Source: Bacilli bacterium (lineage in GTDB: Bacteria > Bacillota_I > Bacilli_A > RF39 > UBA660). From it: a stretch of 45,109 nt of DNA. The DNA lies in assembly GCA_016283075.1 (NCBI GenBank), contig JAEEMF010000085.1, positions 1-45,109 on the forward strand, read 5' to 3'. The notes under the pieces are model-generated. The model saw only the letters and a list, made by a program, of their open reading frames with translations, made no database searches and was not told where the DNA came from. Made by a program: the position numbers and the translations under genes. Positions 14,617-29,455 of this stretch are shown here, one piece after another. Numbering within the stretch: the first letter of the stretch is position 1; each line of letters begins with the position of its first letter.

Positions 14617-16782
14617 CTACATTCTTAAAGGATTTATATCAATTTGAAAAGTTAATTTACTATCACTTTTATAGTGATTTACTAAATAATCTATTTCTTT
14701 ATAAATATCTTTAATTGTCTTATATTTTATAATAATTTGCATATTATAAACATTATTTAATTTAGGAATACTTGCTAGTGCGGGACCTAGTACTACATTA
14801 CTAGGAAGTTTACTTTGTAAGAAATGCGCTATCTTCTTTCCTTCACTATCTAAGTAGTTAAAATTCTTAGAACTAATCTTAACAAAACATAGATTACAAA
14901 ATGGAGGATACTTAAGTATTTTTCTTACCTTTAGTTCTTCTTCATAGAACTTATTGTAATCATGTTTAGCAGCAAGTGTAATACTATAGTGATCTATATT
15001 AAATCCCTGTATAATAACTTCTCCTGGTTTAGATGCTCTACCAGCTCTTCCTGCTACCTGATTAAGTAGCTGGAACGTTCTTTCGCTATTTCTAAAATCA
15101 GGAATATTTAAAGACGCATCACCATTTATTACACCAACTAGTGTTACATTAGCAAAATCAAGTCCTTTAGAAATCATTTGAGTTCCTATTAACATGTCAT
15201 ACTTATAATCAGCAAAATCATTTATAATTTTTTCATGACTACCTTTAGTACTTGTAGTATCTACATCCATACGGACTGTTCTTATTCCTTCAAAAGTATT
15301 TCTTATTTCTTGTTCTAGTTTTTCTGTTCCCATTCCAAAAGAATCTATATTCTTACTTTTACAATTAGGACAAGTATCTAACTTACTAAACTCAATATCA
15401 CAGTAATGACATTTCATTTTATCAATGCCTTTATGATAAGTAAGTGGAATATCACAGTTAGGACACTTATAAGTAAATACACAGTCATGACAAGTAATTA
15501 CTGTTGAATATCCTCTTCTATTTAAAAGTAAAATTATTTGTTCTTTTTTATTTAATCTATCCTCTATACATTTATATAATACGCTACTAAGTACCCTATT
15601 TCCTTTTTTAAATTCATCTCTCATGTTAATTATTTCAACTTTTGGTAAATTTTTATTAACTCTTTCACTTAAAACAAGTAATTTATAAATACCAGCTTTA
15701 GCACGAGAATAACTTTCTATAGAAGGAGTAGCAGATCCTAGTACTAATGGACAGTTATGTCTTTTAGCTCTCCATATTGCTATATCAATAGCATTATATC
15801 TAGGAAGATTTTCTTGCTTATATGTAGTAGAATGCTCTTCATCTATAATAATTACTCCTAGATTATCAAATGGAGCAAATATAGCACTTCTTGCCCCTAT
15901 AGCAATAGATACTTCTTTTCTTTCAATTTTTCTCCATTCATCATATTTTTCACCATTTGACAAACGACTATGAAGTATTGCTATATCTTTACCAAATCTA
16001 TTTTTAAAAACTCTTACCATTTGAGGAGTTAAACTTATTTCTGGAACAAGTACTATAGCTTCTTTTTTAAGTTTTAAGACTTCTTCTATAATATGCATAT
16101 ATACTTCAGTTTTACCTGATCCAGTAACACCATGAAGTAAGTATGATACATAATTATTTAAATTTCTTTTAACTTCATTAAAAGCATAACTTTGTTCTTC
16201 ATTTAGTTTTATCTTACACTCTTCTTTAGAAGAATCTTCATCTATTCTATATATTTCTTTTTTAATTTCTTTTAATACATTATGTTTTATTAAAGTATTT
16301 ACTGAACTAATAGAAATACTAGTAGCATCTTTTTTTAGTATTTCATCTTTTTCATCAAATAATTCTAATATCTTTTTAGAACTATCATTTTTACCTACAT
16401 AATTTCTATCTATAATAGTTAAATAAGTTTCATATTTAGCATTTACCACTAAACCATTTTTAGCTTTTAAAGCACTAGGTAGCATTGTTTGATAAGCACA
16501 TATTAAATTAGTAAAAGTATTCTTACTAATAAATTTACCAAGTTCTAACATTTCTTCATTTATAACTGGTTCTTTATCTATAACATCAATTATATCTTTA
16601 AGTTCATAATCACTTTTAAAGTCTCCGACTTCTAAAACAAATCCTTCTAGAGTTTGTCTTCCAAAAGGAACTTTTACTCTTATACCTACTTTAACATCAT
16701 TTATTATATTAGAAGGTATACTATAGTAAAATGTTTTATCTATATTTTGTGCTTTAATTTCAACTAAAACTTTTGCTAGCAT
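14617..16782 (-). CDS. priA: Primosomal protein N' (replication restart helicase PriA)
   Basis: 721 residues. Restarts stalled replication forks. It has an N-terminal DNA-binding domain, Walker A GVTGSGKTEVY, DEEH box (IIIDEEHSTTYKQ), the zinc-binding insertion CHDCVFTYKCPNCD...CHYCDIEF...CPNCKSKN with eight Cys, and helicase motif QVAGRAGRA. The track start adds MMVGGF; ATG 16782 with AGGTGG upstream is better. It heads the operon priA-fmt-orf-orf-ruvA-ruvB-orf, and its promoter carries a LexA-like box between -35 and -10. Confidence 0.97.
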   Translation of the reverse strand: MLAKVLVEIKAQNIDKTFYYSIPSNIINDVKVGIRVKVPFGRQTLEGFVLEVGDFKSDYELKDIIDVIDKEPVINEEMLELGKFISKNTFTNLICAYQTMLPSALKAKNGLVVNAKYETYLTIIDRNYVGKNDSSKKILELFDEKDEILKKDATSISISSVNTLIKHNVLKEIKKEIYRIDEDSSKEECKIKLNEEQSYAFNEVKRNLNNYVSYLLHGVTGSGKTEVYMHIIEEVLKLKKEAIVLVPEISLTPQMVRVFKNRFGKDIAILHSRLSNGEKYDEWRKIERKEVSIAIGARSAIFAPFDNLGVIIIDEEHSTTYKQENLPRYNAIDIAIWRAKRHNCPLVLGSATPSIESYSRAKAGIYKLLVLSERVNKNLPKVEIINMRDEFKKGNRVLSSVLYKCIEDRLNKKEQIILLLNRRGYSTVITCHDCVFTYKCPNCDIPLTYHKGIDKMKCHYCDIEFSKLDTCPNCKSKNIDSFGMGTEKLEQEIRNTFEGIRTVRMDVDTTSTKGSHEKIINDFADYKYDMLIGTQMISKGLDFANVTLVGVINGDASLNIPDFRNSERTFQLLNQVAGRAGRASKPGEVIIQGFNIDHYSITLAAKHDYNKFYEEELKVRKILKYPPFCNLCFVKISSKNFNYLDSEGKKIAHFLQSKLPSNVVLGPALASIPKLNNVYNMQIIIKYKTIKDIYKEIDYLVNHYKSDSKLTFQIDINPLRM

Positions 16783-25463: not shown

Positions 25464-26771
25464 TTAAAATGGCATTTTGAAGTTGCCGCTTTTAAATTGT
25501 TTCATCATAACTTTCATTTGTTCAAATTGTTTTAAAAGTCTATTAACTTCTTCAACACTTCTTGCTGATCCCTTAGCAATTCTTTGTTTTCTAGTTGCTT
25601 TAAGTACTTCTGGATGTCTTCTTTCATATGGAGTCATAGAAAGAATAATTGCTTCAATATGAGCCATATCTTTAGGATCTACTTTAACATTATTAAGTCC
25701 CATTTTCTTTGCGCCTGGAATTAATTTAATTAAGTTTTCAAGAGGTCCTAACTTTTTAATTTGTTTTAACTGTACAAGGAAATCTTCTAAATCAAATTTA
25801 CCAGCTTGCATCTTTTTTGCTGCTTCCATAGTTTCTTTTTCATCAATTACAGATTCAGCTTTTTCAATCATACTCATGATATCTCCCATACCAAGAATAC
25901 GAGTTGCCATTCTTTCTGGATAGAATTCTTCAAGTCCATCCATCTTTTCAGATACACCTACAAATTTAATAGGAATATTTGTCAAATGTCTAATAGATAA
26001 AGCTGCACCACCACGAGTATCACCATCTAACTTAGTAAGGATTGCTCCTGTAAGTGGTAACTTATCATTAAATCCTGTAATAACATTAATAGCATCTTGA
26101 CCTACCATAGAGTCTACTACTAAAAGGATTTCATTAGGTTTAACTTCATTATTAATATTTTGAAGTTCTTCCATTAAACTTTCATCAATATGAAGTCTAC
26201 CAGCAGTATCTATTATTACATAATTAAATTTATTTTCTTTAGCATAATTTAAAGCATTTTTAGCTATCTCTACCGGATTACCTTTACCTTCTTCATATAC
26301 TTCTATATTAAGTTGTCTACCAAGTTCTTTTAACTGATCAATTGCCGCTGGACGATATACGTCACATGCTACCATTAATACTTTTTTATTATATTTTTTG
26401 CGAAGTAAATTAGCAAGCTTTCCAGCTGCAGTAGTTTTACCACTACCTTGTAAACCTGCAAGCATAAGTATGCTTGGATTACCACTAGTATATAGTTCTG
26501 CTTTTTCTCCTCCAAGAAGATCAACTAGTTCATCCTTTAATATTTTTACAAATACTTCACCTGGTTTTAAACTCTTAGCTACTTCTTCACCAAGTGCTTT
26601 TTCTTTTACTTTATTAATAAACTCTTTTACTACGACGTAGTTAACATCTGCTTCTAAAAGTGCAAGTCTAATTTCTCTTACTACATCACTAATATTTTCT
26701 TCAGTGATTTTTCCATATCCTTTTATTTTATCAACAGCAGATTGTAATCTTTCACCTAAATTTTCAAACAT
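25464..26771 (-). CDS. ffh: Signal recognition particle GTPase Ffh
   Basis: 435 residues. Binds signal sequences with SRP RNA and delivers ribosomes to FtsY at the membrane. The N-domain starts MFENLGERLQSAVDKI. The G-domain has GLQGSGKTTAAGKLA, DTAGRLHID and TKLDGD; the methionine-rich M-domain ends with the SRP-RNA motif RKQRIAKGSARSVEEVN and many Met. The track start adds five residues; ATG 26771 with GGTGA upstream gives the usual N-terminus. It is a single-gene unit here; the SRP RNA gene is not seen in the window. Confidence 0.98.
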   Translation of the reverse strand: MFENLGERLQSAVDKIKGYGKITEENISDVVREIRLALLEADVNYVVVKEFINKVKEKALGEEVAKSLKPGEVFVKILKDELVDLLGGEKAELYTSGNPSILMLAGLQGSGKTTAAGKLANLLRKKYNKKVLMVACDVYRPAAIDQLKELGRQLNIEVYEEGKGNPVEIAKNALNYAKENKFNYVIIDTAGRLHIDESLMEELQNINNEVKPNEILLVVDSMVGQDAINVITGFNDKLPLTGAILTKLDGDTRGGAALSIRHLTNIPIKFVGVSEKMDGLEEFYPERMATRILGMGDIMSMIEKAESVIDEKETMEAAKKMQAGKFDLEDFLVQLKQIKKLGPLENLIKLIPGAKKMGLNNVKVDPKDMAHIEAIILSMTPYERRHPEVLKATRKQRIAKGSARSVEEVNRLLKQFEQMKVMMKQFKSGNFKMPF

Positions 26772-26787
26772 TTCAATCACCATCATT

Positions 26788-26802: not shown

Positions 26803-26828
26803 AAAAAAAAGCACTATTAAGTGCTTTA
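26803..26828 (-). terminator. Terminator of the 347-residue membrane protein gene
   Basis: AAAGCACT/AGTGCTTT stem, loop TAAT, then TTTTTT on the minus strand; the stop codon is in the stem. Confidence 0.85.
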
Positions 26829-27869
26829 AGATTGTTTAAATTCTGGTGAAATATTTGAGTATTTAGCCTGATACATAACAAAAGGAACGTTTGCACCTGG
26901 GAAAAATACTAAATATACCTTTTCATCAGCTTTTAAATTATTATAATTATCTTTTTCAACATTAAATGCTCTTTTATAAGATTTAAATCTAAGTTTTAAA
27001 ATCTTACGATTTCTTTCACTACGAGTAACTCTTTCATCTATCGATTTAATAATATCGGTTTTTATAATAATATTACCATCTCTAATAGCATTTAACTTTC
27101 TACTAAACTTAAGTGCATCTCTAGAACTAAAGACAATTAATAAAAGAGATAATATTGGAATTATAAAATGAAGATCACTATTTTCTCCATAAAAAAGTGT
27201 TACAAATATATTAGTAAGAATAAAAACTACTAGAACGCAGAAATTAACTTTCATTAAGAAGTAGGAATTACTAATACAATCTTTTAAGGCTTCTTTATTA
27301 ATTTCTTTCTTTTCTCCAAATGTTTTTTCTACCTTTTTAAAATCTAAATATCTAGGTAACTCTTCTATATCAATTACTTTTAGATTTTCAGATAAACGAT
27401 ATTCATTCTTATTAAAAATCATAGATTGATAATTATTTAAAACAATATAATATTTATCATCTACTTTAGCCTTACGATAGTTTACTACATCAGTAACTAT
27501 TTTATCTCTATATAAATCATAAATATCTTTAAATACTAAATAATACATTATTTGGTCATTACCTTTAATAGAAGTTTCTACAGAAGTTTCAAATTCTTTT
27601 AGAGTATCTTCTACAATAACATATTCTCCATGTTTAAAACTATTTGTTTCATTAATCTTTTTAAATATTGATACAATTGGCATTGCTATTAAGAATAGTC
27701 CAATTGGAATAGAAAGTGCATGATTATATTTAATACTTATATATACAAGCATACATCCATTAGTTACAAGGACAATAAAAAACACAATTAAAAAGATACT
27801 AAGAGTAAAATTCATAGTAGCATTATGTTTAATAAAATTCTTGGTAATTAACTTCTTTCTAACTTTCAT
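26826..27869 (-). CDS. Four-helix membrane protein of unknown function
   Basis: 347 residues. Two helices near the N-terminus (about 20-42 and 47-65) and two in the middle (about 203-245) frame two cytoplasmic-looking domains: one around YVIVEDTLKEFETSVE and one C-terminal. This resembles membrane proteins with duplicated two-helix plus domain units, but no family is recognised. GGAGGA precedes the ATG. Single gene between ffh and the small-peptide locus. Confidence 0.55.
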   Translation of the reverse strand: MKVRKKLITKNFIKHNATMNFTLSIFLIVFFIVLVTNGCMLVYISIKYNHALSIPIGLFLIAMPIVSIFKKINETNSFKHGEYVIVEDTLKEFETSVETSIKGNDQIMYYLVFKDIYDLYRDKIVTDVVNYRKAKVDDKYYIVLNNYQSMIFNKNEYRLSENLKVIDIEELPRYLDFKKVEKTFGEKKEINKEALKDCISNSYFLMKVNFCVLVVFILTNIFVTLFYGENSDLHFIIPILSLLLIVFSSRDALKFSRKLNAIRDGNIIIKTDIIKSIDERVTRSERNRKILKLRFKSYKRAFNVEKDNYNNLKADEKVYLVFFPGANVPFVMYQAKYSNISPEFKQS

Positions 27870-27956: not shown

Positions 27957-27981
27957 TAAAAAAAGGATTTAATAAATCCTT
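27957..27981 (-). terminator. Minus-strand terminator downstream of the antisense RNA
   Basis: AAGGATTT/AAATCCTT stem with 3-nt loop followed by TTTTTTT. No minus-strand protein gene ends here, so it marks the end of an RNA read from the promoter at 28204-28231. Confidence 0.7.
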
Positions 27982-28045
27982 GCCGTATCATATTAATGTA
28001 GGGATATCTAAATGTTAGGTATTATCTTCGAAAGGAGGTGATACT

Positions 28046-28129
28046 ATGACTAAAAAAGATTTTTTAATTTATTCTTTAGTAATAATCATTTTCCTATTAT
28101 TAACTATATTACTTATAGAAATAATATAA
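28046..28129 (+). CDS. 27-residue hydrophobic peptide, candidate type I toxin
   Basis: MTKKDFLIYSLVIIIFLLLT and seven more residues: a basic N-terminus, one membrane helix and a Glu near the end, preceded by a near-perfect Shine-Dalgarno sequence (AAAGGAGGTG). This is the profile of type I toxins (Fst/TxpA-like) and of small membrane peptides generally. A divergent-strand promoter downstream would make an antisense RNA ending in a hairpin over its 3' region, and the flanking sequence forms a 5'-3' stem. Too short for the ORF track. No named family recognised; toxicity is inference. Confidence 0.65.
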   Translation: MTKKDFLIYSLVIIIFLLLTILLIEII

Positions 28130-28130
28130 G

Positions 28131-28197
28131 AAAAAACCTAACTAGTTAGTTAGGGCGTTACAAGGTAACACCTAACTTACGAATATTAGATGTTCCT
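28131..28197 (-). ncRNA. Candidate antisense RNA (antitoxin-like), about 65 nt
   Basis: From the promoter at 28204-28231 the minus strand reads through a GUUAC/GUAAC hairpin and then CCTAACT-AACT-AGTTAGG followed by TTTTTT, an intrinsic terminator at 28131-28153. Read-through would extend to the second terminator at 27957. It overlaps the 3' region of the peptide transcript. Confidence 0.5.
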
Positions 28198-28203
28198 ATA
28201 CTT

Positions 28204-28231
28204 ATATTATCATATTTGATACATAAGTCAA
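28204..28231 (-). promoter_or_regulatory. Promoter of the antisense RNA
   Basis: TTGACT, 16-nt spacer, TAATAT with an extended TG (TGATAATAT) on the minus strand. No minus-strand ORF follows it before 27957. Confidence 0.65.
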
Positions 28232-28237
28232 TGCCAT

Positions 28238-28266
28238 AAAAAAAGGAAACTAACTATTTAGTTTCC
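28238..28266 (-). terminator. Terminator of ddl
   Basis: GGAAACTAA/TTTAGTTTCC stem, then TTTTTTT on the minus strand, overlapping the ddl stop codon. Confidence 0.85.
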
Positions 28267-29455
28267 CTTTTACTGCGCCTTTAACTCCTTTAGCACCTTT
28301 TAATCCTCCAAAGTTTGAAAGGATATTTGTATCAAATGAAGTAGTTTTTTTACTCTTAATTTTATAATCTTTTATAGCTAAAGTAATAACTTCATCTAAA
28401 AGTTCTGGATATGGTTTTCCACTTGGATCCCATAAGTAGAATGAAAGTGATCCAGGAATAGTATTTGGTTCATTGATATAGAATTTATTTGCTTTCTTAT
28501 CAATTAAAAAATCGATACGGCATATTCCACTTAAACCAAGTACTTTAAATATTTTCTTAGATGTTTCTTGAATATCTTTTGTTAAATCTTTAGATAATCT
28601 AGCTGGAATAACTCTATCTGTTGAAGCCATTCCTTTAGATCCACCTGTTTTAGTTTTACTTCCACCTAAGTATTTATCTTTATATGTTAAGAATTCATCT
28701 GTACTCATTACTTCTTCAAGTACTGAAGCTTCTTGATAATCATAGTTACCTACTACTGAGCAGTTAACTTCTACTAAATTATCTACTAGTTTTTCTACTA
28801 CTATTTTAGAATCATAGCTGATTGCATCTTCAATAGCTTCCTCTATTTTCTTTTCATCTTTTACTACTGTAATACCAACACTACTACCAAGTGTTGCTGG
28901 TTTAACAATTACTGGATATCCTATCTTTTTAATATTCTTTAGAATATCTTTAGGATCATTTAAATATTCAGTATCATAGAACCAAGTATAATCAACAATT
29001 GGTAATTTTTCTGAGGCAAATACTTGTTTCATTACTACTTTATCTTGCCCTAGTGCTGCGCCAAGTACATGTGGTCCTACAAAAGGAATACCTACTGTTT
29101 CTAAATATCCAGCAAGTGAACCATCTTCAACACCTGCACCATGTACTATAGGGAATACTACATCTAGTTCTTCTACTACACTTTTAAATAATCCTAGTTT
29201 TTGAAGTACAAAGCTATTATCTTTCTTATATAACACTACTTTAGTAGCATATCTTTTTAAATCTTCAAAATCCTTATAAATATCAATATCCATAAGCATT
29301 TTACCAGTATACCAAGTTCTATCTTTTCCTATATAGATTGGTACTATATCATATTTATTTTGATCAATTGATTGCATAGCTTGAACTGCCGAAATAATAC
29401 TAATTTCATGTTCAACACTAGTTCCACCAAAAATAACACCTAATTTTATTTTCAT
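28250..29455 (-). CDS. ddl: D-alanine--D-alanine ligase
   Basis: 401-residue ATP-grasp ligase joining two D-Ala for the peptidoglycan stem. N-terminal VIFGGTSVEHEISIISA, the ATP-grasp lid region VIVKPATLGSSVGITVV, and the metal-site segment FYINEPNTIPGSLSFYLW are present. It carries a longer serine/glycine loop (LGGSKTKTGGSKGMAS) and about 25 extra C-terminal residues rich in Gly and Lys (GGLKGAKGVKGAVKG). GGAGATG precedes the ATG. It lies 12 nt after murF, so the dipeptide maker and the dipeptide-adding ligase are cotranscribed. Confidence 0.95.
   Translation of the reverse strand: MKIKLGVIFGGTSVEHEISIISAVQAMQSIDQNKYDIVPIYIGKDRTWYTGKMLMDIDIYKDFEDLKRYATKVVLYKKDNSFVLQKLGLFKSVVEELDVVFPIVHGAGVEDGSLAGYLETVGIPFVGPHVLGAALGQDKVVMKQVFASEKLPIVDYTWFYDTEYLNDPKDILKNIKKIGYPVIVKPATLGSSVGITVVKDEKKIEEAIEDAISYDSKIVVEKLVDNLVEVNCSVVGNYDYQEASVLEEVMSTDEFLTYKDKYLGGSKTKTGGSKGMASTDRVIPARLSKDLTKDIQETSKKIFKVLGLSGICRIDFLIDKKANKFYINEPNTIPGSLSFYLWDPSGKPYPELLDEVITLAIKDYKIKSKKTTSFDTNILSNFGGLKGAKGVKGAVKGKLNS

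Follow-up and report, generated by a model that had tools for sequence, protein, structure and literature searches.

Does the short region between ffh and ddl, around position 28,000 of the window, carry a membrane toxin gene together with the RNA that restrains it? The window is the whole stretch of 45,109 nucleotides that was analysed, a 45 kb contig from a 1.19-Mb genome that is 78% complete. An earlier note had proposed a convergent pair of a hydrophobic-peptide gene and an antisense RNA at this site. A conserved peptide, a conserved antisense promoter and terminator and a covarying 5′-3′ stem support that proposal. We judge it quite probable that a type I toxin-antitoxin module is present at the locus, induced by competence here and by DNA damage (through LexA) in many relatives, whose toxin would cause a membrane-depolarising growth pause. 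Additions to the earlier note are the family of copies in the genome, a promoter ahead of the peptide gene and the links to LexA and competence. The features of the locus are as follows.

27957..27981, minus strand: hairpin with T-run, visible in the sequence, particular to the window copy and overlapping the toxin promoter
27962..27996, plus strand: putative toxin promoter of sigma-H/competence type, AGGA (27964-27967), 17 nt, GTAT (27985-27988), then CATATTAAT
28000..28019, plus strand: 5′ arm of the long-distance mRNA stem (MFE fold and family-wide covariation)
28019..28044, plus strand: SD-sequestering hairpin over GGAGG (28034-28038), with a stem of 12 bp in both the MFE and the centroid fold
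28046..28129, plus strand: candidate toxin ORF, 27 aa (ORF, hydropathy and family dN/dS)
28131..28197, minus strand: predicted antisense RNA (antitoxin) of about 67 nt, placed from its promoter and terminator
28137..28154, minus strand: antisense RNA terminator, directly 3′ of the toxin stop codon (scan, family conservation and stem covariation)
28170..28197, plus strand: 3′ arm of the long-distance mRNA stem (fold and covariation); the T-run of most relatives is lost and the sequence reads CCTATACTTATATT
28204..28231, minus strand: antisense promoter TTGACT-16-TAATAT with TG before the -10 (scan; promoter conserved in the family)
28240..28271, both strands: bidirectional terminator, for ddl (minus) and probably for the toxin mRNA (plus); plus site by scan, minus T-run by eye

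The element and a 347-residue ORF (26826-27869, minus strand) sit between ffh/SRP54 (25464-26786, minus strand) and ddl (28250-29455, minus strand). In the congener G002, ffh follows ddl directly, with neither the element nor the 347-residue ORF between them; both are thus an insertion relative to G002. The element is missing from the two closest relatives, G001 and G002, and is therefore not essential. The 347-residue protein is probably a membrane protein and is without a confident family match. When the window was searched with Rfam, two tRNAs were the only matches and none fell at the element.

The 27-residue ORF with its GGAGG ribosome site and single membrane helix was located at 28046-28129 (plus strand), as the earlier note had it, and its product is MTKKDFLIYSLVIIIFLLLTILLIEII. 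A short charged N-terminus (TKKD) is followed by one membrane helix, with a mean Kyte-Doolittle value of 3.19 over the best 19 residues. Peptides of the family have 22-34 residues, with M-x-K-K-D-[FL]-L-I at the start and a single hydrophobic helix behind it. Pooled dN/dS was 0.205 over 60 distinct 27-codon ORFs and codon position 2 varied least; on this codon pattern, the peptide evolves under purifying selection. Homologous loci with a broken ORF and kept inverted repeats had been named as evidence that would speak against the proposal; the ORF was intact in all 29 family loci (L014-L042) that were found by DNA similarity without selection for an ORF. No significant match was obtained in Pfam for 25 diverse members or in NCBIfam for four, and PHROGs and PADLOC gave none for the members tried, in agreement with the lack of a known family noted before. 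The sole type I toxin match in the Pfam and NCBIfam searches was sub-threshold (HokA, E 0.12). The minus frames carry no strong coding signal. A minus-strand ORF across the element, of about 26 codons in tandem copies, was considered and rejected, as the matching frame in the window copy reaches a stop within six codons.

In this AT-rich DNA, the region holds no more promoter-like matches than chance would give (10 found, 12.3 expected from shuffles); its terminators are above chance (2 found, 0.3 expected). It is conservation, as seen in paralogues, relatives, dN/dS, antisense signals and covariation, that lifts the locus above chance. Comparison of the relatives establishes the conserved peptide, the predicted antisense promoter and terminator, the 5′-3′ stem, the LexA boxes and the shared promoter motif.

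The minus-strand promoter TTGACT-16-TAATAT with TG is present at 28231..28204 and its position is conserved in the family: a minus-strand promoter of sigma-A type is found about 110-120 nt past the stop codon, at 110-129 nt in 82 of 138 elements, and 93% of the elements reach a strong antisense promoter score (3 or less), as do 52% of shuffles. The hairpin and T-run at 28154..28137, likewise recognised earlier, have counterparts across the family: 128 of 138 elements carry a minus-strand terminator immediately past the toxin stop codon, against about 10 in shuffles. A plus-sense terminator occupies the same place in only four of the 138. The stem of the antisense terminator covaries, with six of its eight pairs changed on both sides. 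By its conserved terminator and promoter, from which the transcript is predicted, this putative antisense RNA over the mRNA 3′ UTR is better conserved than any other non-coding feature of the family. At 27957-27981 the minus strand does have a hairpin, as claimed; its proposed role as a second antisense terminator was not upheld, the hairpin being absent from the paralogues. It overlaps the -35 and the spacer of the toxin promoter, and the paralogues have a different spacer.

The plus strand from 27990 to 28215 folds better than shuffled sequences (z -5.3, 0 of 200), into a 5′-3′ stem and a 12-bp hairpin that hides the ribosome site. The SD hairpin is kept in the genome paralogues with G-U changes. 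The long stem joining the mRNA ends, which had been noticed from the window sequence, is thus found in the fold and is backed by covariation across the family. In an alignment of 31 diverse elements, 93% of the cells of the 20-bp leader/3′ arm stem were paired; 13 pairs were changed on both sides, and 41 double-change cells were counted against 10.9 in shuffles (0 of 500). Sliding the partner arm destroyed this signal. The native leader:3′ arm duplex was also more stable than duplexes with partners swapped between loci (-29.2 against -22.3 kcal/mol), being the better in 2256 of 2737 comparisons. Pairing of the leader with the 5′ arm of the antisense terminator was rejected as the main structure (91% paired, covariation weak) and is a possible secondary contact. 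A T-run follows the 3′ arm in 115 of 138 relatives, against 50 in shuffles, at a median of 82 nt past the stop codon, where it would end the mRNA in most relatives. This T-run is lost in the window copy, so the mRNA here probably extends to the ddl terminator at 28240-28271.

Five further full relatives are present in the same genome: two in tandem on contig C4, one on C34 and two diverged copies on C48. The C48 pair (L005 and L006, G000:C48:7351 and 8387) encodes identical peptides 1 kb apart, flanking a gene for a predicted secreted protein; a gene adjoining this region encodes a similar secreted protein. Strong matches (E <= 1e-10) were found in at least 109 of 386 genomes of the taxonomic family. 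Spread was counted at this threshold; matches with E of 1e-4 to 1e-5 in the congeners G001 and G002 (L011-L013) were inspected and judged to be chance, so that the looser tally of 274 of 386 overstates it. A DNA pattern search of the genome collection gave at least 117 stretches. The matches listed are all from metagenome assemblies, most of them of animal-gut origin, with labels such as Bacilli, Tenericutes or Erysipelotrichaceae; Candidatus Onthousia faecipullorum is an example. From the pattern matches and the family search 147 elements were extracted, about 145 of them distinct and 138 with full flanks; the genomes are metagenome assemblies and the comparative alignment is automatic. The homologue search that the earlier note had called for thus yielded about 145 distinct relatives in which the peptide is conserved and the antisense promoter stands at a fixed distance. 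Carriage on phages or plasmids was considered and set aside: tblastn gave no match in 50,697 phage or 72,556 plasmid records and IMG/VR contained no exact pattern match, both weak negatives with so short a query. Distant subfamilies (L148, L115, L147 and L057) retain the layout; their leader and 3′ arm differ widely in sequence, or in some the 3′ arm is changed, so that they would help to follow changes in the RNA parts. In this apparently unnamed family, every tiny gene for a membrane peptide would be opposed by a predicted antisense RNA.

Two kinds of switch are seen in the toxin promoters. A LexA box, AACNNNNGTTTG, occurs in 32 of 145 of them (about 35 of 147) against 0.5 expected, and in these 32 it always lies 72-84 nt before the ATG. 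This genome and five relatives have boxes of the same form ahead of lexA itself; the toxins of the box-carrying relatives are therefore probably under LexA control. This genome encodes LexA, and none of its six toxin copies has a LexA box. In about 14 family members (L054, L108, L110 and L041 among them) a GTTCGNTTGTTT-like sequence stands at the -35 in place of the LexA box, and is possibly a third operator.

The six copies in this genome share the promoter AAAGGATAT-N11-NNCGTAT-CATATTAAT, which the C48 pair matches more loosely. The genome contains ten exact matches to the pattern and none to the reversed one. A match inside priA (15572-15606 in the window) lies within the coding region and was taken as chance. 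The motif also precedes comEA-comEC, a DUF1016-like nuclease gene, a DinD-like gene, an ORF6N/KilA-N-like gene, a C39-peptidase ABC exporter gene and a gene for a secreted protein, where names without Pfam or NCBIfam calls are readings of the translated sequences. Other genera have it too: in G136 (genus g135) it stands ahead of comEA, a clpC-like gene and a C39 exporter, and in G110 it stands ahead of a C39 exporter. In this genome, which is 78% complete, a single motif copy is linked with a textbook competence operon, and a PilB/ComGA-like gene (C28) has no such promoter directly upstream. As a separate observation, AAAGGAWAT-N11-NNCGTAT-NATATWA occurs in this genome (G000) at C33:2606, C64:6110, C54:47341, C53:1355, C52:3391, C66:15749 and C39:39776, and the same recurrent motif is found at L190-L196 in G136 and G110. 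At one of these sites (L193, G136:C10:37547) the motif has no close ORF and a short hairpin stands behind it (GAGGGTAAGTACCCTC), perhaps a competence-controlled small RNA.

Which sigma factor would read this motif? Besides RpoD, one sigma-70-type factor was found in the genome, a SigH-like protein whose gene lies between rlmB and nusG, the neighbourhood in which B. subtilis keeps sigH. The motif with a slightly different -10 region also precedes dnaG, and the B. subtilis dnaG-sigA operon has a sigma-H promoter as well. Sigma-H activates com operons in Lactobacillus sakei (PMC3364868). The reported SigH promoter is AGGA/GAAT with a 17-18 nt spacer (PMC12456013); the window promoter, AGGA-17-GTAT, comes near to it and, as in sigma-H/ComX regulons, its motif precedes comEA, but the -10 differs, being GTAT and not GAAT. 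The recurrent motif is thus a candidate competence (sigma-H/ComX) regulon in uncultured Bacilli, and the window toxin promoter may depend on sigma-H. The simplest reading of these sequences is that a competence-type regulon has captured the toxin genes here. Whether a type I toxin is indeed wired into the competence regulon, with sister loci switched by LexA or by a competence sigma factor, we hold to be about evenly balanced. In the papers searched, no type I toxin was found in a sigma-H/ComX competence regulon.

Taken together, we infer the transcripts, the RNA pairing with RNase III, the toxicity, the sigma-H dependence and the physiological role as follows. A short mRNA would start at the sigma-H-like promoter (27964-27988) and encode the 27-residue single-helix membrane peptide. 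Two locks, the ribosome-site hairpin and the 5′-3′ stem, would keep this mRNA untranslated. The antisense RNA of about 67 nt, made from a constitutive sigma-A promoter, would pair with the 3′ UTR, leading to cleavage of the mRNA by RNase III, to a locked closed form, or to both. During competence here, or upon loss of LexA repression in many relatives, the toxin mRNA would exceed the antisense RNA; the putatively toxic peptide would then enter the membrane, with depolarisation and a growth pause. In this lineage the toxin is thus probably made during competence and restrained by the constitutive antisense RNA. Points against this scheme are the GTAT of the -10, the single textbook competence operon with the motif, the bare upstream region of the PilB/ComGA-like gene, the lost T-run of the window copy and the absence of the element from G001 and G002.

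Other explanations of the peptide were weighed. It could be a non-toxic small membrane regulator, like KdpF and other helper peptides, with the antisense RNA tuning its amount. Conservation of the hydrophobicity and of the KKDFLI start, more than of the detail, would suit such a role, but multi-copy, tandem and patchy occurrence with an empty site in a congener, a dedicated predicted antisense RNA and a double translation lock are all typical of type I toxins and speak against it, and no fixed neighbour gene or constant partner gene stands beside the family copies. We regard a regulator as unlikely.

Even less probable is a competence-induced, bacteriocin-like or fratricide peptide that hits neighbour cells, its expression controlled by the antisense RNA. 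The same promoter does stand ahead of C39-peptidase ABC exporters, the type that processes double-glycine bacteriocins; the peptide, however, has neither a double-glycine leader nor a cleavable signal, no immunity gene adjoins, and most family members have other promoters, without an exporter link. Inverted ends, several copies per genome and tandem copies could suggest a non-coding mobile repeat, a MITE-like inverted-repeat element with an incidental ORF. This is contradicted by the dN/dS of 0.2 in the plus frame and by the intact ORFs of the DNA-found copies, and the promoters are directional and differ between lineages while the coding unit stays; we give it hardly any weight.

If the type I module is wired to competence as proposed, DNA uptake in these bacteria would routinely involve a membrane-depolarising growth pause, much as TisB belongs to the SOS response of E. 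coli, and the LexA and competence switches would be interchangeable. The natural variation of the promoters would offer a direct test of the role of a chromosomal type I toxin, as a pause on DNA damage or on DNA uptake. The locus would add a type I toxin-antitoxin family that is apparently unnamed and is common within one large taxonomic family of uncultured gut Bacilli; the papers searched describe no type I systems there. A candidate competence regulon also becomes readable in bacteria not known to be transformable.

How does the locus compare with known systems? In Hok/Sok and AapA/IsoA the full-length toxin mRNA is closed by 5′-3′ pairing, and such closure is predicted here as well. Unlike in those systems, the antisense RNA lies at the 3′ end and not over the leader, no mok-like leader ORF was seen, and there is no significant sequence match. 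Fst RNAs share a bidirectional terminator and pair via the direct repeats DRa and DRb (PMC8167048). The present locus resembles Fst (pAD1 par RNA I-RNA II, Fst/Ldr superfamily) in its predicted convergent short RNAs and membrane peptide of about 30 residues; membership was rejected, since the repeats are inverted and not direct, the terminators are separate and there is no Pfam or NCBIfam match, and the peptide is without a long charged C-terminal tail. TisB of E. coli is a LexA-controlled 29-residue hydrophobic toxin, whose RNA antitoxin IstR-1 is not damage-induced (PMC4147584). Many relatives have a LexA box, as with TisB, and the window copy is without one. IstR-1, which is divergent, acts by blocking a standby site of the 5′ UTR, whereas the antisense RNA predicted here is convergent and lies over the 3′ UTR. 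In TxpA/RatA and BsrG/SR4 the toxin mRNA and the antisense RNA are convergent and share an overlap of their 3′ ends, the TxpA and BsrG peptides are hydrophobic, and the BsrG ribosome site is held in a stem; pairing at the 3′ UTR recruits RNase III in TxpA/RatA and tightens the ribosome-site stem in BsrG/SR4 (PMC4147584). The locus differs from these in its 27-aa peptide, an extra covarying 5′-3′ stem and a toxin promoter of LexA or competence type, and Pfam and NCBIfam searches with family members gave no match to them. The assignment to the Fst/TxpA kind made earlier is thus not supported as membership, since the database searches gave no sequence match and the repeats are inverted, unlike those of Fst, but it holds for the layout: with predicted 3′-overlapping convergent RNAs and a hydrophobic peptide, the locus comes closest to TxpA/RatA and BsrG/SR4.
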